Below are positions 17,640-41,950 of a DNA stretch of 64,000 nucleotides, piece by piece. Below the pieces are notes generated by a model, which saw only the letters and a list, made by a program, of their open reading frames with translations, searched no databases and had not been told where the DNA came from. A program made the position numbers and the translations under genes. Every line of letters starts with the position of its first letter. Positions within the stretch are counted from its first letter, which is position 1. Source of the DNA: Chrysophaeum taylorii (lineage: Eukaryota > Sar > Pelagophyceae > Pelagomonadales > Pelagomonadaceae). The DNA lies in NCBI GenBank assembly GCA_029834535.1, contig JAQMWT010000011.1, forward strand, positions 124,001 to 188,000. Reading direction: 5' to 3'.

Positions 17640-18970
17640 GCACATCAACAACCCCCTCCCACGTAAGCCCCTCGTTTTTGTGAAGGAAAAGTGTTTTTGT
17701 GGAAGCCCCTCGTTTTTGTTTTTAGCTCCCATTGCACAGGCGCCCTTCGTTCTGTATTTTCCGCTATTCGTTGCTCCACCCCTCGTTCTGTATTTTCCCC
17801 TCGTCGTTGCTCCTCTCCTCGTTCTGTCTTTTCACCTTGTCGTTGCTCCCCTCCTCGTTCTGTATTTCGCCTATTCGTTGATCCACTCCCCGTTGTACAT
17901 TTTCTGCTATTCGTTGATCCACTCCTCGTTGTGCTTGTCGGTTTTGGTAAAACCAGCGAATCACGTTCCATCGCGCATTTCACCCGCCACAACTAAGCTG
18001 TGCTTGTCAATTTTTCGCGTGCGCAACTTTCGTGCTTCATATGTGGTTGGATCGCTCATCTTCGGGATCCTGGACCGACGCTTCTTTGCTGTGTGATTCG
18101 GCTTCTTCATCTCCGGTATCAACGCAATGTTGTGGTTCTCCTTCGCGCACTATCGCCTTTCGCCGCTTTTCTGAACTTTAAAATTCGGTTTTGCTATCGA
18201 AGCGAATTCCGTGCTTCGTACCCGCGACGCTATCTGCAACGTTCTTACGTGTCACCACTGTTTTGCCAGTATCGCCAACTTCTACCGCAGTCTACTCGAG
18301 AATGACGAACAAAGATCGCCGCTCGCTCCTCAAAAGTTGGCCCATATGGCAACTTCGTTCTTGCGAATGCGAAAAAGGGCCACTTTCTTATCTGCCACAG
18401 CAGGCTGGCATACAGCAGCCTGGTCTACCCGTGTTCGTTCCTTACAACGCTGGCACGTCAGAAGTCTTTCACCATCGCGTACAGGACGCGGTCGTGCCCA
18501 TGGCAACTTGCTCGCGCCATAAGGATTACGCCTGTTTTTGATTCTGTCGACTCCGACCATCGTCATAACCTCGTCACCATGCAACATATCTGCCCAAAGG
18601 CAGCGTTCTCATCGGACGTCTGGTACACCGTCCTCATATATACCAGCCTGTGTTCCCGCTATCTTTGCCCCACTGCGATTCTCAGTGGCAACAGTCGCCC
18701 AACGCAAGTCTTCCCAGGCACCTTTGTCGCTATTGTTCTTCAGACCTCGATTTTTGCTGTCAGTTTTGCTTATCAGATTTCCTGCAATGTCAACCACCGA
18801 AGGAACTTCAACGTTGTTCCGACTTTCTCGAATCACGCTTCCAAGCCATCGTCTACTGCTGCCCCATTGTCACCTGTTCGCTGTTGCCCGATTGTCACCT
18901 GTTCTTCCGCTGTTGCCCCCTCGTCCCCTGTGTTTGCTGAGAATGCGCCGGTTTCACTGGGACTGATCAC
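17640..18970 (+). other. Unique internal segment of copia subfamily II (copy B)
   Basis: Closely related to 38,790-40,140 (minus) in copy C and absent from A and D. The 5' part is a tandem array of about 33-bp units (CTCGTTCTGTATTTTCC... with CTATTCGTTGCTCC). Downstream both copies keep stretches in one frame, such as WPIWQLRSCECE, QQAGIQQPGLPVF and VQDAVVPMATCSRH, which suggests it once encoded something. I do not recognise a family; it occupies the place of protease and integrase. Confidence 0.6.
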
Positions 18971-18978
18971 CCCATCAC

Positions 18979-20510
18979 GTGAACCGACCATTCTACGAGC
19001 TAATGAACTCCGAAGAACCAACAACCCCCAGAGAAAAGTGCACAACAAAGTCGAGCAAACCAGAGCCGACAAAACCAACGAGCCCAAAACCTCCTGAGGA
19101 AAGTGCAAAACAAAGTCGAGCCAAACAGAGCCGACCGCGCCAAGTCGACAAAAGCGCACATTATTCAGAAACAACTGGAGAAACAAGATTCAGTATCATT
19201 CCCTTCGATTCTGTGTCATCTTGTCATTCCCTGTACGTTAATTATGCTAGCTTTCGTTTGTTAGTTCATTATGTCTCCCTTCCCCTCTGTCTCGCCCACT
19301 CTTCCGAAGAAACGCCACACTATTCTTACATTGATGACGGCGCTATCACTTCCACTCATTTACGCGAAGCTCTAGCCCATTCAAATCCTGCACGTCGGTT
19401 ACAAGCCATTGCCAATGAATATCATTCCCTCGGTCAGCTCGGTTGCTGGGATGTTGTTCGCGTTCCTTCTACTTTTTTCTGGCAACATCTGCACTTTGAA
19501 GTGGGTCCTACGCAAGAAGTATGAATCTGGCCGCTTCAAATCGTACAAAGCTCGTCTCGTTGTCCGTGGTTACACCCAGGTTCACGGCATTGATTACCAC
19601 GACACGTACAGTCCTGTAGCCAACCTATACGCTTCTTTCTCACCTTCGTTGCCGTTCATGACTGGGATATGCATAAGTTAGATGTCAGCTCTGCTTTCAT
19701 ACAAGCCTCTGTCTGGCCACCCGAAGGCTATGCTCCCAGCCAACCCAAAGATACCTCCAAACTCATTTCCAAACTCTGTCGCTCTTGGTACGGTTGCAAG
19801 CAAGCTTGTCGCCACTGGTGGCTTTACTTAGAACGCTTCCTTGTCAATGATTGTAGCTTTGTCCGCGGATCTGGCGACGCTTGCAGCTACAAACTCATGC
19901 TTAAGTCTACTGTCGTTCTGCGCCTTGTTCTCGTCGTTGATGATCTTCTTGTGGCGCATCCCCGTTCTTGCATTGGCCATTACCAAGCTTTCCTTTTGCG
20001 TTTTCAAAGCATTCACACTTACGTTGGTCTTCGCATTGCGCGTGATCGAGCACATAAACCCGAATTGACTCCCGCTCCAAACGGTCTTCGTCTTTCTGCG
20101 GCTGACTGTCCTGCACACGGTTCCTCCGATCACCTTTTTTTTTATTGTCGGTTGTGTCTTGTTTATTTCTGTTATGACACGACTCTCCGCTACCTCCATG
20201 GTACTCAAGATATTGCCCTTGTTCTTGGTCGCGATTCTACCCTTCGCCTCTGTGATTATTCCGACTCCAGCTGGGCCGACAACCCCGATGATCGCCGCTC
20301 CACCACTGGCTACTGCTACTGCTGAACGTTCCTATGTATGTCGATAACCGCACCACCGTGACCCACTATCACCGCAACAAAATTATTGCTCCAGCATGTC
20401 CCGGTCTTGACAATCTTAGCGACATCTTCACCCGCAGTCCGGAAGCTCATCCCTTCCTTCGGCTTCGTGCTCGTTATCTCACGTCCCGTTTTACCATGCC
20501 ATCTCCGGTC
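18979..20510 (+). pseudogene. Copia RT-RNase H remnant, copy B
   Basis: Pieces in three frames: KARLVVRGYTQVHGIDYHDTY, LDVSSAFIQASVWPPEGYAP, RSWYGCKQACRHWWLYLERF, RLVLVVDDLLVAHPRS (VVDD as in copy A), LCDYSDSSWADNPDDRRST and the C-terminal HPFLRLRARYLTSRF. Internal deletions around 19,700 and 20,020-20,300 remove parts of the palm and RNase H. Confidence 0.75.
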
Positions 20511-21640: not shown

Positions 21641-21959
21641 GGACGACCTGCGGGCGGGGCGGGGCGGGGCCCCTCCTCTCTTCGCCTTCGCCGGCCCTCG
21701 AGGCACCACACTCGTCACCACAACCCTGCCCTCAAGAAAAGCCAATGGTGTGTTCGTCATTTGAACAAGCCCTCTTCGAACTCCAACAATTCTGGGAATG
21801 GTAGTGGGCATAGTTGAAGCTTCTTTGATTCGAGCGCAGGTACTATCATTTTGAAGTCATTTAAGGTTTGGAAGACATGCGGGGGATCAACGGTGTGGTG
21901 TTGTCCGTCAACGATTTGGTGGTATCTATTTCTCCAAAAAAGCCGGGCACCGCCTGGTG

Positions 21960-24900
21960 ATGGCGCGGTTCGCTTTGGTCGTCGTCGTCGTCCATCAAGT
22001 GATGATGCTGATTATTGGCGTGTTGCAGCAACGAGGACACGTGGTGGCAGCAGCATCATCCTGGGCTCGTCCTCGGCGGCGGCTCGAGGAGGAGGAGGAG
22101 GGGGGGGTCGTATGCCTCGACCTCGTGATGAGGGACGACTGGGGGGACGGGTGGAACGGCGCGCAGTACTGGTTCGCGAACGACGAAGGCATCGTGTTCG
22201 CGAGCGGCACGATGGACAACGGGGGCGAGCAAACGACGACGATTTGCTTCGAGGACGCGCCCGCGTGCTTCTCGACGGCGGTTGACTCGGGGGATTACCC
22301 GTCCGAAATCTCCTGGACGCTCGGCGACGTGCTGAGTGGTGGCGCGCCCGAACCGCGACGGGAGTTTTACGTTCTGGCGAACGGCGACGTCGTCGCGGGG
22401 TCGCCATGCACTCGCGCTCCGACCGCGAGTCCCGCGCCTACGGCGAGTCCCGCGCCGTCGCCAGCGCCCACGAGTCCCCGCGCGCTCCGGGACGCCTCGT
22501 GCGACTTTGAGTCGGTCGACATGTGCGGCTGGAAGACCGGGGGGGGGACATCATCATCATCATCTTATCTCTGGATTCGCTACGGCGGGCCGACCCCGTC
22601 GGTTTCGGGGCCGACGACGGCGTGGGGACATTACGCGTACATCGAGGGCTCGACCTTAAACATGCCGCACAAAGGCCCGTTCTTGTTGACAAGCCCCTTC
22701 TTCGACATCGACGAGGGGCTCGACGCTGCCTACATCCAGTTTTACTACCACATGTACGGCGGCGGCGAGCTGGCGGTCGAGTATTCGCTCGACGGAGCGT
22801 CGTGGATGCCGCAAGGCTGGAACGAGAGCGGCGACCAGGGACCTCGGTGGCAGTCGAGTGGCTTCCTCGAGATCCCCTCGACAACCCGGGCGGTTCGTTT
22901 CGTGGCGTACACCGGCGCCGATGCGACGAGCGATATCGCACTCGACAACGTAACGCTATCGCCGCTCTCGCCTACGTCTTCGCCCTCGCACACCCCTGCG
23001 CCAACCGCTTCCTGCTTCGAGCTCTTGATGACCGATTCGTACGGCGACGGGTGGCAGGGCGCCGAGTATGCGATCATCGCAGATGATGGTCGCGACGTGG
23101 TGCAGGAAGGAACGTTGAACGACGGCTACGCCGAAACTGACGTAATTTGCGTCGACGACGCTCCGACGTGCTTGACAATTCAGGTGAGCACGGGCAATTT
23201 CGACAGCGAGATTTCGTGGACGCTCGGTGGTGGCGTCGTGAGTGGCGGCGCGCCTCTCGTCTCGGGTCGGGAGTTTTATGTCCTACCGGGCGGCGAAATC
23301 GCGAACGGGTCTTGTACCTTCGCGCCGAGCGCGAGTCCGGAACCGTCCCTTTCTCCGACCCACACCGTCTCTCCCTCCTCCACCAGAGCGCCAACCCTCT
23401 TCGCCCCCTGCTTTGATTTTGTGATGAGGGACAATCACGGCGACGGCGGGTGGAACGGCGCCGAGTATCGGATCCTGAACGACACGCGCGTCGTCCGAAC
23501 CGGCACGATGGTCGGCTTTTTCGAGCAGATCGAAACAATATGCGTCGACCGCACGCCGGTGTGTTTGTCGATCGAGATCAGTTCGGGGACCTTCGATTCG
23601 CAAATCTCGTGGACGCTTGGCCAAACGCTGAGCGGCGGCGCGCCGGAGCCAGGTCTCGATTTCTACGTGCTTCCCGGAGGGAACGTCGTCGCGGCTCCTT
23701 GCGCTCTCGAGCCCTCGCCGGCGAGCGCGTCGCTTATGCCAGCCTTCGTCCCAACATCGATAATATCTACGTACGTGGGCTTGGCTCTCGCGGCTGCTGG
23801 GAGCCCGACGACGACGACGAGCAAGATCGAGGTCGCGAGTACCGTATTCGAATTCGAAGACGAAATATCGATTCTGGACAGAAACGTCGAAATCACGAGC
23901 GTTGGCGGCGGTAACGCAGTCTTCGATGGCGGATCGCGAACTCGCTTGTTCGTGCTAAGCAACGCGACGTTGCTCTTGTCGCGCATCGTGCTCGTTAACG
24001 GCAGTGCGTTTTCGGGTGGAGGCTGCGCGCTCGCGACCAAAGGCTCGCTCCTGCGTTTCGTCGACTCCGAGGCGACCGCGTGTCGGGCGAGCGCCGGCGG
24101 TGCATTCTATCTCGATGAGAGCTACCTCACGGCAACAAACTCCAGCTTATCCTCGAATACTGCAACCTCGGCACCTTACCAGTGTCTTTTTTTTTGCCCT
24201 TTCAAGCGCCATCGACTGATGATATGCTTCAGGATGGCGGGGTTACCTTTGTCACTTCCTCGAGCTCTACGAGTTTCGCTGGCTGCACGCTCGATTCGAA
24301 TTCAGCGGTATGAGACATCAAGATCCGCAGCGTCGAAGGGAATGTTTTGTTTTCATTTGATTTGATTTGATTTGATTTGATTTGTTTGTTTGTGGGGGTG
24401 GCGTCGCTTCGTCGAACTCTTTTTGATTTCCGCTCGCAGGTCGACGTGCGCCGCCAAACAGTGTTGTTAATAATAACCATTTGCTTCCTCCTACTACTAG
24501 GCCTTATTAGTGACACACTCTCTTCTTGTGTAGAAAGGTGGCTTTGCTTTGATCACGCTTTCGAGCGCGATGAGCCTGGTTGACTGCAATCTTACAAATC
24601 ACGTCTCCGTGCGCATACGCGGTGTCTCTTTGCTGTCGTATTGACGGGTTGATGTTGTTGTATGCTCCTCCCTCGCAGGGCGGGGTGCGCCAACCAGTGC
24701 CGCATATTCTAGAACTTTGAGCGCAGCCAATTTTCGTGTGCTGTTTGATTGTTTGTTTGCAGTGGGGAGGCGTATTTTTCGTGTCGCACTCGAGCTCGAT
24801 AAGCGTGGTAAGCAGCCTCTTCGCGAATAGCGTTGCCGTACGACAAATAAACAGCGTCCTCCCTCCCTCCCTCCCTCCCTCCCTCCCTCCTGGAAAATGT

Positions 24901-27900
24901 AAACTGTTGTCTCCAACGCGAGCGTCGCGTGCTCGAATGACAACACTCCCCGCAGGGCGCGGTGCGGCTGCCGGTGCCACGAACGTGTCATTTCCTCCTC
25001 CGCGCGAACGATGATGGTTCGCAAACGCTTTGTTTGTGTGCTGCCTGCAGCTTGATGGAGGCGTCGTGTTTCTGTACTACTGGAGTACGATGAGCGTCGA
25101 GAACTGCCTCTTCGTCTCGAACCAAGCGGTGCGACTGGGGGGTGTTTCCTTTGTCTGCCTTTCGCTACGTATCTCGGGTTCATCCTCCTGACGCGGTGCA
25201 CGTTTTGTGGTCATTCTCGCAGGGCAGAGTGCGCAAAGCAGCGTCGCGCGAACGATTGCGCATAGCAGTCACAGTCAACCAATCGTGTCTGCAGTGGGCT
25301 GGCATTGCGTACCTCGCTTACTTCTGCACGGTGACCATCGCGGGCAGCACGTTCGTAAATAATTCGGCCGTGCGACAATCAATTTCAGCAGCGTCCAAGG
25401 GTATTTATTTATTTATTTATTTATTTGATGCTTGGTTGTGACCCTTTTTGGTGACGTGACCTGTCTCTCGTACGTACGTACGTTGTCCCGTCGTCGGAGG
25501 GCTGCTGACAACACAGGTCCGAGTGCGCCAGACGGCGCCGCGAGCGACTTGATTTCTTTCTACGACGAAGAAAAATACTCGCGAGCTCCAGGTCGGCGGG
25601 ATAACTTACCTCTACGACTTTTGCGCGGTGGAGATCACGGACAGCAATCTCGAGGCAAACGCAGCCGTGCGCAAAGAAAGAAAAAAGCACTCGCCAATGG
25701 AATGACGACCCCCGCAGGACCGGGTGCGCCGGCCAGTGCTGGGGAGAACGCGTCGCCCAACTTGCGTTGTTCGCAGTGGGCTGGCATCGCGCTGTTGTGG
25801 AACGAGAGCGAGATGAGCGTCGAGAACAGCGTGCTCGCGTCGAACTCGGCCGTAAGACGATCGTTAAGCAGCGTTGAATGCCATCTTTCTCTGAGCGCTT
25901 TCTTTGATCTGTCGCTTCGTGGCTCGATGGCACTCGGAGTGATCATCGCGCGCGTGCTCTTCTTGTTCGCAGAACTTCGGGGGCGTCGCGTATTTGGCGA
26001 TGAATAGCGCGATGACGGTCTCGAACAGCGAGCTCAAGGAGAACTCCGCGGTAAGACGACGAGTCAGCGTCGTTCGTTTTCTTCTTTTGGTGTTGCCTCT
26101 TTAGTCGTCGCCCGCCCGATGTTTGTCAGCGTCGCGCGCGATCACGCGAACGTCGCAGGCGGACGTACGCCGACGGCCAGCGTCTCGCGAACAAGACGTC
26201 GATGTTTTGCAACGGTCGATCGATCTCGCGTGCTATCTTCTTCTTCTTCTTCTTCAGGATGGGGGTGTCTTTTATTTGGCAAGCACGAGCACGACGATCG
26301 TAGCGAATAGCACCCTCGAATCCAATTATCCGGTAGACGCGCGGCGTCTGACGACCACTCGTACTCTTCTATCGAAGGAAACATGCGGACGCGTCATAAT
26401 CTCTTTGTCTTTGCAGGCCTGGGTGCGCCATCCATCCATCCATCCATCCGGGACACCAAAATCTCTCGCGTTTCGCATTTGCTGTAGGAGGCTGGAGTTG
26501 CCTACGTATCGCACGCGAGCTCGCTGGCGCTCGACAACTGCACGCTCGAAGAAAATTCTGCTGACGTATGCGCGCACAGAGTCCGTCCGTCCGTCCGCCG
26601 ATAATGCCCGATAACGCGACCTTCGGCGGCATCATAGAGCTTGGGCGGGGCCTTGTTTCTCGAAACGAAGAGTACGTTAGTGCTCCGCGCGACGACGCTC
26701 GTCAACAACACGGCGCCCTTGTCCGGAGCCCTGCATTGCCAGGTACGAGAGTCTTCTTCTGCTCGCTTTGAGAGTGTTGCTTTTTTTTCTCCCAGACGTC
26801 GAGTACTATATACGCGGCATTCACGACCCTCGAACCGCCGTTTTCGACCGAGTTCAATTTGGCCGAAACATGCGTTTTGCGAGTCGCGCGGCGTCCTCTT
26901 ACTTGGGCACGCACTATATCACATCGCTCAGCAGGTTCTTCTATCTCGCGAACAACGATGGCTCGGCCGAAATGCAGAGCATCATGAGCGGTGCGATAAG
27001 CGACGCCGGGACGACCGACATGCGATACTGGACCTACCCCTGCGGGGCGGGTGCGTTGACGACAAAACCGATCAAAAACCGGTGCGCCCAGGCCAATACT
27101 CGTCAGATGGGCTCGAGCATGGGAACTCGAAGGAATACGTCGATGCCAACAACGTAACCATCGACGAGAACGACCCGACCTGCGACGCGGGTCTCGAACC
27201 GACTCGGCCGACGGCGTGTTCTGCGAGTTGCGTCCCCTGTAAGAACACGCGCCGCCAGTGTATTCATTCTTACACTCTCTAACTTCCTTCTCATACGCAG
27301 GTCCGAGCGGAAAGTACTCTGAAATCTCGCTCGATCGCTATTCTCTCGTGGGCGAGGGCTCTTGCGATGCCTGTATTACGACGCGGTTGCTCGCGCGTTG
27401 ACCGATACTCGAGCTCAGGTCCCGTCGGTCGATTTCTAGCCGACGATGGCATGGATGCGTCGCTCCACGACGAGGAGGCCGATTGCGAATTATGTGAGTT
27501 GTTCTTCCGCTAATTTCGATGCTCGCTCGCTCCGGTCCAGGTCCGCCGGGAAAGTTTGGCAACACGTCTGCCGCGAGCGAATGCATGCTCTGCCCGAATG
27601 GTGCGGCTTTGTTGGTGGACGACGACGGACAGACAGCCACGCGGCCGGCCCCTCCCTTCAGGAACATTCGCAGCCGAGTCGGGGAAGTTGTTTTGCTCGA
27701 CGGCAGAACCGGGATATTACGTCGCCGTTGCTGGTGCCAGCGAACAAATCAAGTGCGCGCCGGGCAAGTTCTCCGCGGGAGGGGCCGTCGAATGTGCAGA
27801 ATGTTGGTACCAGTTCGCATCGAAGAATGAATCATCGAATGAATTAGGCAACCTCGGCGAGTACCAGCCGTCGGATGGGCAAAGTTCTTGTCTGTTGGCG

Positions 27901-30669
27901 TCGCCCGGTTTCGTGGTCAAGAGCAGCGGGCTGACGAGCCAAATCGCATGTGCCACGACTTACAGCGTCCAAAGCTTGGCACGAAATACTGCCTGTTGTG
28001 TAGGCGAGCAGGGGACGTTTGCGGCCGGCTCCGCGAACACGGAATGCGCGCCGTAACCACCGTCGTCCTTATTAGAAAGACGGACCGACAAAAAATTGCG
28101 CAGGTGTTCGCTAGGCTCGTTCAACGACGAGGTGGGCCAATCTTCCTGCAGGTCTGAGCGCCGGTTTTTTTCTTTCTTCTTGGAAAGAAAAAGCTCAACT
28201 TAGGCGATGCCCGAGCCCGATGACAACTCGGCAGCCCGGTAGCCTGGTGTGCGATGCCTGCGAGGTGCGGTCGTCGTCGTCGTCGTCGTCGACGCTACGA
28301 ACGAAGAAAAAGAAGAAGAAGAAAACCCTGGGTTGTTGTAGGCATCGTTTTACTGGGACACGGTGCGGTTCGCCAATTTCGAGCGGCTAAACGGGACTCT
28401 GTGCGCGGAGTGCTGCGTGCGATGCGAGAGCGCGTGCCCCGAGGACGACGACGCGTGCCACCGGTGCGACGCGAAAGGAGGGGTCACCCTCGAAACATTT
28501 CCCGTCCACCGAGGGTTCTGGCGCGCCGCGTCGTCGTCGTCCAAGGTATACAAGTGCGAGCTCAGCGGCGCTTGCCTCGGCGGTACCGACGCGCGGACGA
28601 GAGCACGGTGTAGCCGCGGTCATCGCGGCGCTCTTTGCGGTGCGACGAGTCCCGACGATGATGGTTCATAATTAGCAGGCGCGTGTCGCCCGGGATTCGA
28701 GATGTCGCCGCTCCGAAAGAAATGCGCGAGTGCTTTTTTGGGTTTGACCAGCCCAACCCAACCCTACCCTTCTCTGTCAGGTGAAGTGCGGGCCGGCAGT
28801 CAAGGTCGTCGCGTCGACGGGCACGGTTATCGTCTTGTTGTTCTTCGCCACCGTTGTCTGCGGCGTCCTCGTCCGAAGGTACGGGCTGTCGGAGGCGTGT
28901 TGGGGAAACGTGGTCGACATTCTGACCGATCGATTCGACTGGCAGCGCAGCGACGAGGTCGTCGAGCAGCGGGGATTCGGGCGGGAACTGTGTCGATCCG
29001 TCATGACCAAGGTCAAGATCGTGGTTGCCTGTTGGCAGATTGCTTCGTCGACAGTCTGGACGATGCCGCACGTCCAGTTTCCTGACCCGTTCGAGGTCAT
29101 GCTCGCGACGGCCAACGCGTGCGTCTATCTCTAAATATGTCGAGATTGTCGTCGTCGTCGTCGTCGTCGTAGGCTCGGTCTCGGTTTTTTTGAAATCGGA
29201 TCGTTCGATTGCATTATCGAAATGTCGTATTTCTACAAGCTCGTGGTCGTGGTCGCTTTGGTCCCGTTCGCGTTCGCGCTCGCGATCGGCGTCGTCTACG
29301 CCGGCACCGTGGTGCGGCTCGAGCTGGGAAACCGCGAGGATCTCGAAACTCGTAAAGAACGGGCGACCTCGGCGGCGACGTACGCCGCGCTCTTGCTCTT
29401 CTACGTAGCCCTCCCGAGTTGCGCGTCTTACACGTTCACTTATTTCTCGTGCGCGCGGTACGACCGCGGCGTGGGTCGCGACGATCTCAAAGTTCTCATA
29501 GCATCGCCCGACATCAAGTGCACGAGCCCGGCCTACCGCGGATGGCGCTGGTTCGTCGCTTTGATGGTCGTCGCGTGGCCGATCGGCGTGCCGCTCTCGA
29601 TAGCCGTGCTCCTCTGGTCCTATCGCCACCGCCTCAATCCACCCGTGCGAGAATCATCGCTGACAGACGACGCAGAAGAAGAAAAGAAGGAGGACGACCT
29701 CGTTTCGCGTCCGTCCCGAGGCACCGAGATGATTCTCTTTCGCGACGAGCTTCGGCATCGGCTGTCGCTGATCCAAGCGCGGAAGATCGAAGCACGCGAG
29801 AAAGATAAACTCCTTCGGCGACTCGAGTTCATCTACGAGGAGTACGAACCTCGCGCCTGGGCGTTCCCAGTCTTCGAGATGATCAGACGAGTCTTCTTGT
29901 CCGCCGTGCTCACGATGTATATCATCTTAGTTTAGAGACGACGAAAAGACGACTTCTTCCTAGGCTTTACCCGGGCTCGATGAGCCAAGTCACCGTGGGC
30001 CTCCTCGGCGCCTTCGTCTCGTATCGCGTCTTTCTCTTCTACCAGCCATACATCAACGCGAACGACGACTTCATCAGCGAGCTCTCCCAGACGCGTGAGT
30101 GCTCGCGTTCGACTCTGTGGTTTAAAATGATATCCCCAGAGCTCGTCATCATCTACTTCGCGGCCTTGGTGGTCTTCACGAGCAAAGCCGCGGGAGAGCA
30201 GGAGGGTGTCTTCTCGAGCGACACCTTCGGCGCCCTCCTCGTCGTGATTTACGTGTCGTCGTTCGTCGTCGCTGTTTTCGCCGTCCTCCTCGAGTTTTAC
30301 GGTCGCACCAAAGTCAACACGGGGGCCGTCACGATCAAGTCTGCCTTCCACAGCGCTCACGAGGTCGCGAGGCAAAGATACACCCGTTTCGCCTCGTACT
30401 TTTCGTCCCAAGAATCCACCACTCTCGAGGACGACGACGACGACGACGACGTCGTCGTCGTCAGGAACGACGACCGCGCCGCCGCCGAAGACCACCGGCT
30501 AGAAGAACGCCAGCAGACGACAGCTTCTTCGTCTTCCAAGGACTCCGGCGACCACCCTCTCGAAGACGTCACGATTGAAATAACTCAGCCCCGCCGCCCG
30601 TCGTCGTCGTCGTCCTCGGATGCACCGCCAAAAAAGTGGGCCGAAGAGGAGAGCGACGACCAAACTTGA
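21960..30669 (+). CDS. Giant secreted/membrane protein: DGWNGAEY repeats, MAM, beta-helix, Cys-rich modules, polytopic C-terminus
   Basis: My splice model has 28 exons plus eight 6-nt microexons and reads about 2,070 codons without interruption. Exon 1 (21,960-24,170, 737 codons) gives a signal peptide (MARFALVVVVVHQVMM), three repeats starting at residues 52, 352 and 484 with the motif DGWNGA(E/Q)Y, a MAM-like domain (CDFESVDMCGW, from about 181), Ser/Thr/Pro linkers, and the first beta-helix coils (from about 636). Exons 2-12 encode more coils. Exons 13-24 encode Cys-rich modules of the CxxGx(Y/F) type. Exons 25-28 give about eight membrane segments and an acidic cytoplasmic tail. This architecture, seen in stramenopile genomes, resembles surface receptors or TRP-like channels; function unknown. 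The start is the ATG at 21,960. Exon 1/2, 13/14 and 24/25 junctions need GC-AG introns. Single-base errors cannot be excluded. Confidence 0.75.
24233..26742 (+). other. Beta-helix exon array with 6-nt microexons (part of 21,960-30,669)
   Basis: Coil exons, all phase 0: 24,233-24,307; 24,534-24,602; 24,763-24,837; 25,051-25,128; 25,295-25,369; 25,592-25,666; 25,777-25,851; 25,973-26,050; 26,258-26,332; 26,488-26,565; 26,638-26,742. Almost all are 75 or 78 nt and read (x)GGVxYL...SxxSxxNSxLxxNSA. Between most pairs stands AG, six bases starting with G, then GTGCG or GTACG: 24,440-24,445; 24,679-24,684; 24,955-24,960; 25,223-25,228; 25,517-25,522; 25,718-25,723; 26,159-26,164; 26,417-26,422. With the two extra residues per turn the coil length is mostly 27. 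At the two junctions without a microexon (25,852-25,972 and 26,566-26,637), the next exon itself carries the extra residues (NF, SL). The microexons are inferred from sequence only. Confidence 0.7.
26935..28725 (+). other. Cys-rich GCC2/GCC3-like module exons (part of 21,960-30,669)
   Basis: Exons 14-24: 26,935-27,050; 27,092-27,238; 27,301-27,372; 27,419-27,493; 27,541-27,600; 27,662-27,802; 27,848-28,052; 28,104-28,151; 28,204-28,264; 28,342-28,639; 28,679-28,725. Each module starts CxxGx(Y/F), e.g. CPSGKYS, CPVGRF, CPPGKFG, CNLGEYQPSDG, CSLGSFNDE, as in ephrin-receptor-like GCC2/GCC3 domains. Four introns split the first Cys codon (T|GT or T|GC, phase 1). Introns are 39-77 nt. The last large exon carries VHRGFWRA and SRGHRGALCGA, which in related algal proteins precedes the membrane part. 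Confidence 0.7.
28781..30669 (+). other. Polytopic membrane domain exons (part of 21,960-30,669)
   Basis: Exons 25-28: 28,781-29,118; 29,173-29,916; 29,964-30,094; 30,140-30,669. Hydrophobic segments include VIVLLFFATVVCGVLV, LVVVVALVPFAFALAIGV, YAALLLFYVALPSCASY, FVALMVVAWPIGVPLSIAVL, VGLLGAFVSYRVFLFY, LVIIYFAALVVF and FGALLVVIYVSSFVVAVFAV, with DCIIEMSYFYKL in the style of the TRP-like C-terminal domain of GCC2-containing protist proteins. The tail has a D-run and many acidic residues (30,430-30,669) and ends at TGA. The 45-nt intron 30,095-30,139 is a multiple of three without a stop, so its retention would not break the frame. Confidence 0.7.
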
Positions 30670-36485: not shown

Positions 36486-36581
36486 TGTTACGAATGGAAT
36501 GAGGCGTTAGACTAGCGATAAGAGAAAGACGTATGGATACTGGATACGTGGTGCAGGGGTAAGTGTCATAGCTTCCTCACA
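36486..36581 (-). repeat. 3' LTR of copia copy C
   Basis: 96 bp, TGTGAGGAAGC...CGTAACA on the minus strand. Differs from the 5' LTR by three substitutions. Confidence 0.88.
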
Positions 36582-36758
36582 CATGTGCTGGAAAAGAAAG
36601 AAAAGGAAAAGGGGTAAGTGAGGTCCACACACGGGTGCTGGAAAAAGAAAGAAAAGGAAAAAAGGGGTAAGTGAGACGCTCACAGAGGAGAAGCTTTGAG
36701 GAAGACGTCATAGAGGCATTGTGGCAAGAAAGAAAAACAACAGAGATCAGGGCGAAGA

Positions 36759-38789: not shown

Positions 38790-40140
38790 GCATTCTCATC
38801 AAACACAGGGGCAAGGGGGCAACACAAGGGGGCAACAGCGGAAGAACAGCGGAAGAACAGGTGACAATCGGGCAACAGCAGGAACAGGTGACAATGGGGC
38901 AACAATAGACGAGAGCTTGGAAGCGTGATTCGAGAAAGTCAGAACAACGTTGAAGTGCCTTCGGTGGTTGACATTGCAGGAAATCGGGTAAGTGAAACTG
39001 TCAGCAAAATCGAGGTCTGAAGAACAATAGCGACAAAAGTGCCTGGGATGACGTGCGTTAGACGATTGTTGCCACTGAGGATCGCAGCGGGGCAAAGATA
39101 GCGGAAACACAGGCTGGTACATATGATGGCGGTGTACCAGACGTCTGATGAGAACGTTGCCTTTGGGCAGATATGTTGTATGGTGACCAGGTTATGACGA
39201 TGGTCGGAGGCGACTGAAGCAAAAACAGGCGTAAACAGGGTTGATGCGAACGTTGGGTGTTTGGTTGTTGTGGCGCGAGCAAGTTGCCATGGGCACGACC
39301 GCGTCCTGTACGCGAAGATGGAAGACTTCGGACGCGCCAGCGGTGTAAGGAACGAACACAGGTAGACCAGGCTGCTGTATGCCAGCCTGCTGTGACAGAT
39401 AAGAAAGTGGCCCGTTTTCGCATTCGCAAGAACGAAGTTGCCATATGGGCCAACGTTGGAGGAGCAAGCGGCGAGCTTCGTTCGTCATACTCGAATAGAC
39501 TGCGGTAGAAGTTGGCGACAGTGGCAAAACAGTTGTGGCACGTAAGAACGTTGCAGATAGCTTGCAGATAGCGTCGCAGTGGCACGTAAGAACATTGCAG
39601 ATAGCGTCGCGGGTGCTGAGCACGGAATTCACGTCGATAGCAAAACCGAATTTTAAAGGTCAGAAAAGCGGCGAAAAAGTACGTGAAGGAGAACCACAAA
39701 TCACACAGCAAAGAAGCGTCTGTCCAGGATCCCGAAGATGAGCGATCCAACCACATAGGAAGCACGAAAACTGCGCACGCGAAAAATTGACAGGCACAGC
39801 TTAGTTGTGGCAGGTGAAATGCGCGATGGAACGTGATTCGCTGGTTTTACCAAAACCGACAAGCACAACGAGGAGTGGATCAACGAATAGCTGAAAATGC
39901 ACAACGGGGAGTGGAGCAACGAATAGGCGAAATACAGAACGAGGAGGGGAGCAACGACGAGGTGAAAAGACAGAACGAGGAGAGGAGCAACGACGAGGGA
40001 AAATACAGAACGAGGGGTGGAGCAACGAATAGCGGAAAATACAGAACGAGGCGCCTGTGCAATGGGAGCTAAAAACAAAAACGAGGGGCTTCCGTGGGAT
40101 GGGGTTGTTGATGTGCTTGCATCAGACATTCGGCGGTACA
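38790..40140 (-). other. Unique internal segment of copia subfamily II (copy C)
   Basis: Homologous to 17,640-18,970 of copy B. Contains the tandem CGAGGAGTGGAGCAACGA-like units at about 39,870-40,080 and the shared frame with WPIWQLRSCECE, QQAGIQQPGLPVF, VQDAVVPMATCSRH. A 36-bp stretch (GATAGCGTCGC...GCACGTAAGAAC) is duplicated at 39,540-39,610. No recognised family. Confidence 0.6.
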
Positions 40141-41677: not shown

Positions 41678-41773
41678 TGTTGCGAATGGAATGAGGCGTT
41701 AGACTAGCGATAAGGGAAAGACGCATGGATACTGGATACGTGGTGCAGGCGTAAGTGTCATAGCTTCCTCACA
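41678..41773 (-). repeat. 3' LTR of copia copy D
   Basis: 96 bp, ends CGCAACA on the minus strand instead of CGTAACA. Confidence 0.85.
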
Positions 41774-41950
41774 CAGGTGCTGGAAAAGAAAGAAAAGGAA
41801 AAAGGGGTAAGTGAGGTCTTCACACAGGTGCTGGAAAGAGAAAGAAAAGGAAAAAGGGGTAAGTGAGACGCTCACAGAGGAGAAGCTTTGAGGAAGACGT
41901 CATAGAGGCAGTGTGGCAAGAAAGAAAAACAACAGAGATCAGGGCGAAGA

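Follow-up and report, generated by a model that had tools for sequence, protein, structure and literature searches.

In a 64,000-nucleotide stretch of the genome of the pelagophyte alga Chrysophaeum taylorii (assembly GCA_029834535.1, contig JAQMWT010000011.1, positions 124,001 to 188,000; hereafter the window), one gene, named W11, encodes an array of beta-helix coils in split form (24233-26742), with six-base segments recurring in the gaps between successive coil exons. These hexamers are very probably real 6-nucleotide (nt) coding microexons that are usually included, and that form part of a repeated unit copied in tandem and present in at least seven related genes. The 70.8-Mb genome that contains the window, assembled in 697 contigs, was searched for relatives; the paralogs of W11 are named P548, P684, P309, P670a, P670b and P542. 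The feature is wider than the preliminary description of this DNA had proposed, with 36 hexamers in seven genes and not eight in one.

The W11 array comprises eleven coil exons, of 75 nt in seven cases, 78 nt in three and 105 nt in the last. All have lengths that are multiples of three, all are phase 0 and each encodes one beta-helix coil. Eight gaps hold a CAG, followed by six bases and then by GTGCG or GTACG, and the exons joined with their hexamers give a stop-free frame of 304 codons. The preliminary description had listed eleven near-constant-length phase-0 exons and eight such sites; its coordinates, hexamer letters and reading frames are all exact, and the eight sites were all found as described. 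Its statement that the following exon supplies the extra residues in the two gaps without a hexamer holds for E7-E8, with N F downstream, but not for E10-E11, where the residues are split into D before and SL after the intron. The features of the gene, with introns and microexons as predicted, are as follows.

21957..24170, forward strand: first coding stretch, with a MAM domain and uninterrupted beta-helix coils at its end (open reading frame extent; Pfam MAM)
24233..24307, forward strand: coil exon E1, 75 nt, DGGV...NSA
24308..24439, forward strand: intron A1, gtatga...ctcgcag
24440..24445, forward strand: microexon m1, GTCGAC (V D)
24446..24533, forward strand: intron B1, gtgcgc...tgtag
24534..24608, forward strand: coil exon E2, 75 nt
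24679..24684, forward strand: microexon m2, GGCGGG (G G)
24763..24837, forward strand: coil exon E3, 75 nt
24956..24961, forward strand: microexon m3, GGCGCG (G A)
25051..25128, forward strand: coil exon E4, 78 nt
25223..25228, forward strand: microexon m4, GGCAGA (G R)
25295..25369, forward strand: coil exon E5, 75 nt
25517..25522, forward strand: microexon m5, GTCCGA (V R)
25592..25666, forward strand: coil exon E6, 75 nt
25718..25723, forward strand: microexon m6, GACCGG (D R)
25777..25851, forward strand: coil exon E7, 75 nt
25852..25972, forward strand: lone intron between E7 and E8, without a separate hexamer, as if intron B were missing
25973..26050, forward strand: coil exon E8, 78 nt, starting NFGGV
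26159..26164, forward strand: microexon m8, GCGGAC (A D)
26258..26332, forward strand: coil exon E9, 75 nt
26417..26422, forward strand: microexon m9, GCCTGG (A W)
26488..26565, forward strand: coil exon E10, 78 nt, ending NSAD
26566..26637, forward strand: lone intron between E10 and E11, the final gap of the array
26638..26742, forward strand: last coil exon E11, 105 nt
26743..30669 (approximate extent), forward strand: rest of the gene, with short exons, an ephrin-receptor-like Cys-rich match and then a hydrophobic region, probably multi-spanning (open reading frames; colinear by eye with paralog L062)

A protein search of the genome returned 59 coil matches, many of them in long open frames, and a search with our own coil consensus returned 13, judged by the open frames shown. 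Searches with conserved flanks led to six close split-coil paralogs, one each on contigs C548, C684, C309 and C542 and two on C670; further arrays may exist elsewhere in the genome. Two more relatives, at C531:256401-258500 (L088) and C9:430801-432600 (L089), have the same downstream domain and uninterrupted coils, and could be retrocopies or an ancestral intron-poor form. Among the search results, the contig pairs C10/C297 and C133/C140 show the same or nearly the same match scores at similar offsets, which fits two haplotypes assembled apart. The one rbcL match in the genome, on contig C697, is 93% identical to rbcL of Pelagococcus subviridis, the sole named eukaryote among the 120 matches listed out of 8,000, and other matches reach 97%; this points to a pelagophyte, provided that the contig is part of this genome and not a contaminant.

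In the seven genes, a six-base candidate is present in 36 of the 46 listed coil-to-coil gaps: 8 of 10 in W11, 5 of 6 in P548, 2 of 3 in P684, 9 of 11 in P309, 1 of 2 in each of P670a and P670b, and 10 of 12 in P542. The 36 hexamers comprise 28 different sequences; none contains a stop codon, and all of them are phase 0, as are the adjoining exons. The tiny segment has a 3′ signal directly before it and a 5′ signal directly after it in 36 of the 46 gaps under a loose rule, and in 26 under a strict one. The loose rule, AG-N6-G[TC] with at least 40 and at least 35 bases on the two sides (chosen sites AG-G5-G(T/C)), gave more than one candidate in 12 gaps, in which the one lying after [CT]AG and starting with G was chosen. 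Boundaries are inexact for the first gap of P684, which has only a poor candidate, and for the last gaps of P309, P670a and P670b, all counted as lacking a hexamer. The gaps before W11 E1, after the last listed P684 exon and at the first split of P542, P670a and P670b stand outside the 46 because exon boundaries there are unsettled.

The length of six is specific to these genes. On the forward strand of the window, the strand scanned, CAG-N6-GT[AG]CG occurs eight times, always within 24437-26427, and the same pattern with any other spacing from 1 to 24 occurs 0-5 times, at most three of them in the array. With a strict donor, GT[AG][ACT]G, and the first base left free, a spacing of six is found in 26 of the 46 gaps and every other spacing from 0 to 30 in at most three; 200 shuffles preserving dinucleotides gave six in a mean of 0.375 gaps and a maximum of 2. 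The first base is G in 26 of the 26 strict-donor hexamers, while G makes up 25% of gap bases; a Fisher test on this point is partly circular, G having been required when the hexamers were collected, and 26 of 26 is the clean figure. A scan of both strands of 90 sequences, namely the window and 89 loci, many of which overlap (350,161 bases), for AG-N6-donor-intron-AG-xGG yielded 27 distinct cases, 25 in the seven genes and two chance-like; each other length from 3 to 15 yielded between 4 and 12.

The spacing between N-x-A and the next GG indicates what the hexamers do to the protein. The uninterrupted reference consists of 32 open frames of at least 120 codons (relatives and W11 exon 1), with repeats of one context counted once; for the split genes the pattern was slightly looser, admitting A, V, S or P as third residue and GG or AG. 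Over the 165 uninterrupted links the spacing is 3 in 89, 2 in 60, 4 in 10, 0 in 4, and 1 and 6 in one link each. The 36 split links read with their hexamers give 3 in 22, 2 in 6, 4 in 5, 0 in 2 and 7 in 1; read without them, they give 1 in 20, 0 in 6, 2 in 5, 5 in 2, 3 in 1 and no match in 2. A spacing of 2-4 is thus found in 159 of 165 uninterrupted links, in 33 of 36 with the hexamer and in 6 of 36 without it. For this range the links with hexamers are indistinguishable from the reference (p 0.20) and those without differ from it (p 6e-24); these values overstate the case because related links are treated as independent, though the direction is plain. Inclusion of the hexamers keeps the frame and makes the protein motif normal. 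As a small correction to the period of 26 residues previously given for the uninterrupted coils of exon 1, the commonest GG-to-GG period among the relatives is 27 (n=74), and 26 comes next (n=60). Three coil exons of P309 stop one codon short (N-S, N-M and N-S) and lack the Ala of N-x-A, and the hexamers that follow them, GCCGCC, GCCGGG and GCAGCT, all open with an Ala codon that restores the motif; the chance of this is about 0.012, for a pattern noticed after the fact.

Gaps with one intron only offer another view of the same codons. A separate hexamer is absent from 10 of the 46 gaps, where the single introns measure 47-162 nt. In P542, exons 11 and 12 end AAT ATT GCT TAC and AAT ATT GCT AAC and are followed by an intron with the B-type motif (described below), while hexamer 10 of the same gene, which precedes a B intron, is GCCTAC. 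In these two exons the hexamer appears to be fused to the upstream exon, intron A being absent. The converse is seen at W11 E8: the two extra codons, AACTTC (N F), form the start of the downstream exon, and there is no intron B. W11 E10, ending in GCTGAC, and the last split exon of P548, ending in GCAAAT, resemble cases of upstream fusion, although among the ten one-intron gaps the strict B-type motif is present in just the two P542 introns and is missing from those of W11 E10 and P548. The same fused-codon reading is likely for the last exon of P670a and P670b, where it hinges on the boundary, the listed exon starting after ACT.

In the 36 gaps with a hexamer, the upstream (A) introns measure 43-149 nt, with a median of 105, and the downstream (B) introns 41-98 nt, with a median of 77; five of the 36 B introns start with GC. 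A motif that played no part in the choice of hexamers, CAGYGYC (at most one mismatch), is present in 30 of the 36 B introns, 27 times at +10 or +11, against a mean of 5.7 and a maximum of 13 in 300 shuffles. From about position 19 onward, B introns of different genes are random-like, with a mean identity of 0.24-0.27 over 509 pairs. Nine exact copies of the extended pattern CAGG-N5-GTGCG-N5-CAGYGCC occur genome-wide, and every one lies in W11, P542 or P548. Tolerating one mismatch raises the count to 21, of which the family accounts for 16, and the reversed control gives 10. CAGYGYC may be a splicing element or a remnant of a common ancestor. The length kept across paralogs, the restored spacing, the fused codons and the intron motif at a fixed distance together support what was first proposed for W11, namely 6-nt coding microexons in the turn of each coil.

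The proposed unit would consist of a coil exon of ∼72-81 nt, intron A, the 6-nt microexon and intron B, the microexon giving two turn residues that link the conserved N-x-A with the conserved GG in the strand that follows. Most likely, the two short introns would each be recognized as introns (intron definition). A 6-nt exon need not then be recognized across itself, because each of the two introns is short and, in most cases, equipped with good 3′ and 5′ sites, and removal of A and B in either order would leave six bases in the message. The G after the 3′ site and the CAGYGYC located 10-11 nt into intron B would make splicing efficient, and the latter element may aid the 5′ site of B.

The history of the unit is most visible in P542, which contains tandem arrays with periods of 278 and 280 bp made of exon-intron-hexamer-intron units. 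Units 3 and 4 are identical at 0.87 in the exon, 0.87 in intron A and 0.97 in intron B, and units 6 and 7 at 0.94 in all three parts; other neighbors are more mixed. Since neighbors are alike in the exon and in both introns, the unit of duplication includes both introns and the hexamer. Of the two evolutionary options raised at the outset, duplication of the whole unit is therefore directly visible in P542. The W11 units are old, with exon identities of 0.43-0.59 and mostly lower values in introns, and the repeat search detected no tandem array in P309.

Several observations weigh against the microexon reading and have to be set beside this evidence. The strict donor GT[AG][ACT]G is absent from 10 of the 36 hexamers, five of which have a GC donor, and 3 of the 36 links fall outside a spacing of 2-4 even with the hexamers. 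The coil-exon list was curated by eye from translations, after a rule-based pass that found most exons and one false one. The paralogs are not independent genes, since every one was found via this family, and P542 and P670a/b hold recent copies. CAGYGYC is not purely a mark of the microexon because A introns carry a similar motif (26 of 36, at positions varying from 6 to 22; mean of 4.1 and maximum of 11 in shuffles), and its conservation is partly explicable by common descent. P670a and P670b (C670:197101-198900 and 258901-260700), two copies 62 kb apart, show 11 differences over the 225 bases of three coil exons and 7 over 349 in the gaps, with eight nonsynonymous and two synonymous codon changes, so that purifying selection is not evident there. 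CAGN6GTGCGCC is not enriched genome-wide (246 matches against 491 in the reversed control), and the signal therefore belongs to this gene family. A microexon or introner signature as a general property of the genome was rejected on these counts and on those of GTGCGN{3,16}CAGCGTCG (160 against 118 in the reversed control). As for the two C670 copies themselves, their coils are possibly diversifying or relaxed, the counts being tiny.

Could each gap instead be one long intron of 104-249 nt, with the hexamer as a conserved internal element or a relic and the coils joined directly? The sites are indeed flanked by intron-like sequence, a coil of 25 residues is possible (15 of 222 uninterrupted GG-to-GG periods) and the longest one-intron gaps reach 162 nt, a length also within the range of whole gaps. 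Direct joining, however, would yield a spacing of 1 in 20 and of 0 in 6 of the 36 links, values taken by just 1 and 4 of the 165 uninterrupted links; splice signals lie on both sides of the candidate hexamer in 36 gaps, several one-intron gaps have fused codons, and A and B separately have the lengths of single introns (medians of 105 and 77 against 47-162 in one-intron gaps). Taken together, these points make a single long intron very improbable. Less credible still is a hexamer acting as a recursive-splicing (ratchet) exon (PMC6224609; published work is cited, here and below, by PubMed Central identifier), joined first and removed later with the second half of the intron, with no residue in the mRNA. 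The closeness of the 3′ and 5′ sites does recall ratchet points, but such an exon needs a start that is readable as a donor; of the 36 hexamers, five open with GT and the other 31 do not. The coil spacing would moreover stay wrong, and recursive splicing was rejected on these two grounds.

A different origin for the introns is conceivable, in which both introns of each unit are recent introns of transposon origin (introners) inserted separately at a fixed target site of each repeat. Introners are reported in Aureococcus (PMC9860276) and discussed, by intron length, for Pelagomonas (PMC9481584), and GT(A/G)CG and a CAGYGYC near the 5′ end are common to the A and B introns. This origin is nevertheless quite unlikely: the extended 5′ pattern is hardly enriched genome-wide, as the counts above attest, whole units co-duplicate in P542, and the whole array with its introns, used as a DNA query against the genome, retrieved nothing but itself (the search was non-exhaustive, and the lack of a match does not show rarity). 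The last proposal would add to the microexon reading and does not exclude it: the microexons would be real and the array would serve mainly for alternative splicing, yielding many variants of a surface solenoid. The elements beside the hexamers are symmetric (0-0), because of which any skip keeps the frame, and schistosome micro-exon genes (MEGs) have been described in this way (PMC4350168), whereas the spacing statistics favor inclusion as the fit state for nearly every link; such a main role is possible but rather unlikely. We regard with similar reserve a splicing-encoded solenoid, in which the fixed 6-nt exon, set by CAGYGYC at +10/+11 and an obligatory G, would be included or skipped turn by turn. 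If this were true, the cell could tune the turn geometry and coil number of a surface protein through alternative splicing and through changes in the copy number of the unit.

Right-handed beta-helices of the PMP type have repeats with N-x-A and GG[AILV] motifs and a period of about 25-30 residues. The uninterrupted relatives show N-x-A and GG repeats with a period of mostly 26-27, and one unit probably corresponds to one coil of such a PMP-like helix, as far as sequence motifs can tell. In Pfam, the coil array scores 18.3 bits with Chlam_PMP, below the cut-off of 20.6, and 24.6 bits with NosD, above the cut-off of 23.6. The first coding stretch has a MAM domain (E 8.5e-13), the Ephrin_rec_like match after the array reaches E 2.4e-4 and 21.2 bits, below the cut-off of 23.1, and the hydrophobic open frames downstream of the array resemble membrane spans. 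Because of the MAM domain, the coils, the ephrin-like match and the hydrophobic frames together, the W11 product is likely to be a large cell-surface protein. Among solved structures, the array protein has no sequence match at E 0.1, and a profile of 13 relatives matches one chain, 7w5z_U2, 'Transmembrane protein, putative'. Outside this genome, the joined array has 13 protein matches at 23-34% identity, a comparison at the protein level in which gene structure is not visible, and in which the length rule applied to the 304-residue query shut out full-length relatives. By homology with a gcaagc donor in P309, we infer that the first coding stretch ends at a GC donor (...NTATS, then gcacct). 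Two segments of W11 are likely GC-AG introns, 24171-24232 (gcacct after NTATS) and 26879-26934 (gcgagt after ETCVL, by eye against L062), and GC donors also occur in the paralogs (gcaagc in P309, gcaaga in P542).

Elsewhere in the window, a tandem repeat of 51-53 bp with nearly the same consensus occurs at 2890-2990, 36574-36675 and 41767-41880, and these are probably parts of one dispersed element. Tandem arrays of 36/71 bp at 17747-17930 and 39867-40051 have consensus units that look reverse-complementary, and are probably an inverted pair of one element. An open frame at 19669-20325 resembles a copia-type reverse transcriptase.

If transcripts confirm the structure, up to ten 6-nt exons of the same length would be present in one gene (P542), and the family of seven would constitute a natural replicate series for studying how exons below the size limit of exon definition are spliced. 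Because the series includes gaps with one flanking intron, it may give a direct view of how introns were lost or gained. Protein repeats and gene architecture would then co-evolve as units of exon, intron, microexon and intron are duplicated. A structure of this kind would probably escape standard gene callers. In excerpts of the open-access literature on microexons, including those of algae and protists, no comparable array was found, which is weak evidence of absence.

The closest known systems share some of these properties. In schistosome MEGs, most of the coding region lies in very small symmetric exons that permit variation by alternative splicing (PMC4350168). The likeness lies in the many tiny symmetric exons per gene, here eight in W11, ten in P542, nine in P309 and five in P548, all phase 0. 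Unlike in MEGs, most of the coding length here resides in coil exons (hexamers make up 48 of the 912 nt of the W11 array and coil exons the other 864), and the predicted tiny exons have a fixed length of 6 nt, alternate with one-coil exons, occupy one fixed position of the repeat and belong to an alga. The exons of schistosome MEGs vary in length. The aphid bicycle family has unusually many small internal exons, with more than 100 microexons in a megacycle gene, and its internal exons are almost all phase 2 (PMC9168663). Those described here are phase 0. Bicycle exons, moreover, are not known to be of one fixed length or to be tied to a solenoid repeat. Plants have conserved coding microexons of 1-15 nt that are often missed by annotation; these are conserved singly, and the excerpted text names at most two microexon clusters in one gene family (PMC8831610). 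The present arrays reach eight to ten copies. In collagen and leucine-rich repeat genes, exons are laid out in register with the protein repeat, and new repeats arise when exons are duplicated; compared with such one-repeat-per-exon genes, two exons are used here for each repeat, one of them of 6 nt. In Aureococcus, a possibly related alga, mobile elements have given rise to introners, and insertion of one reported family lengthens the transcript by 12 nt (PMC9860276); here, by contrast, no spread of the intron motif through the genome was found, and the added sequence would be an exon in its own right, flanked by two introns. Gene families with many tiny exons are thus already known from schistosomes and aphids, and the array described here is a new and unusually regular version of them.

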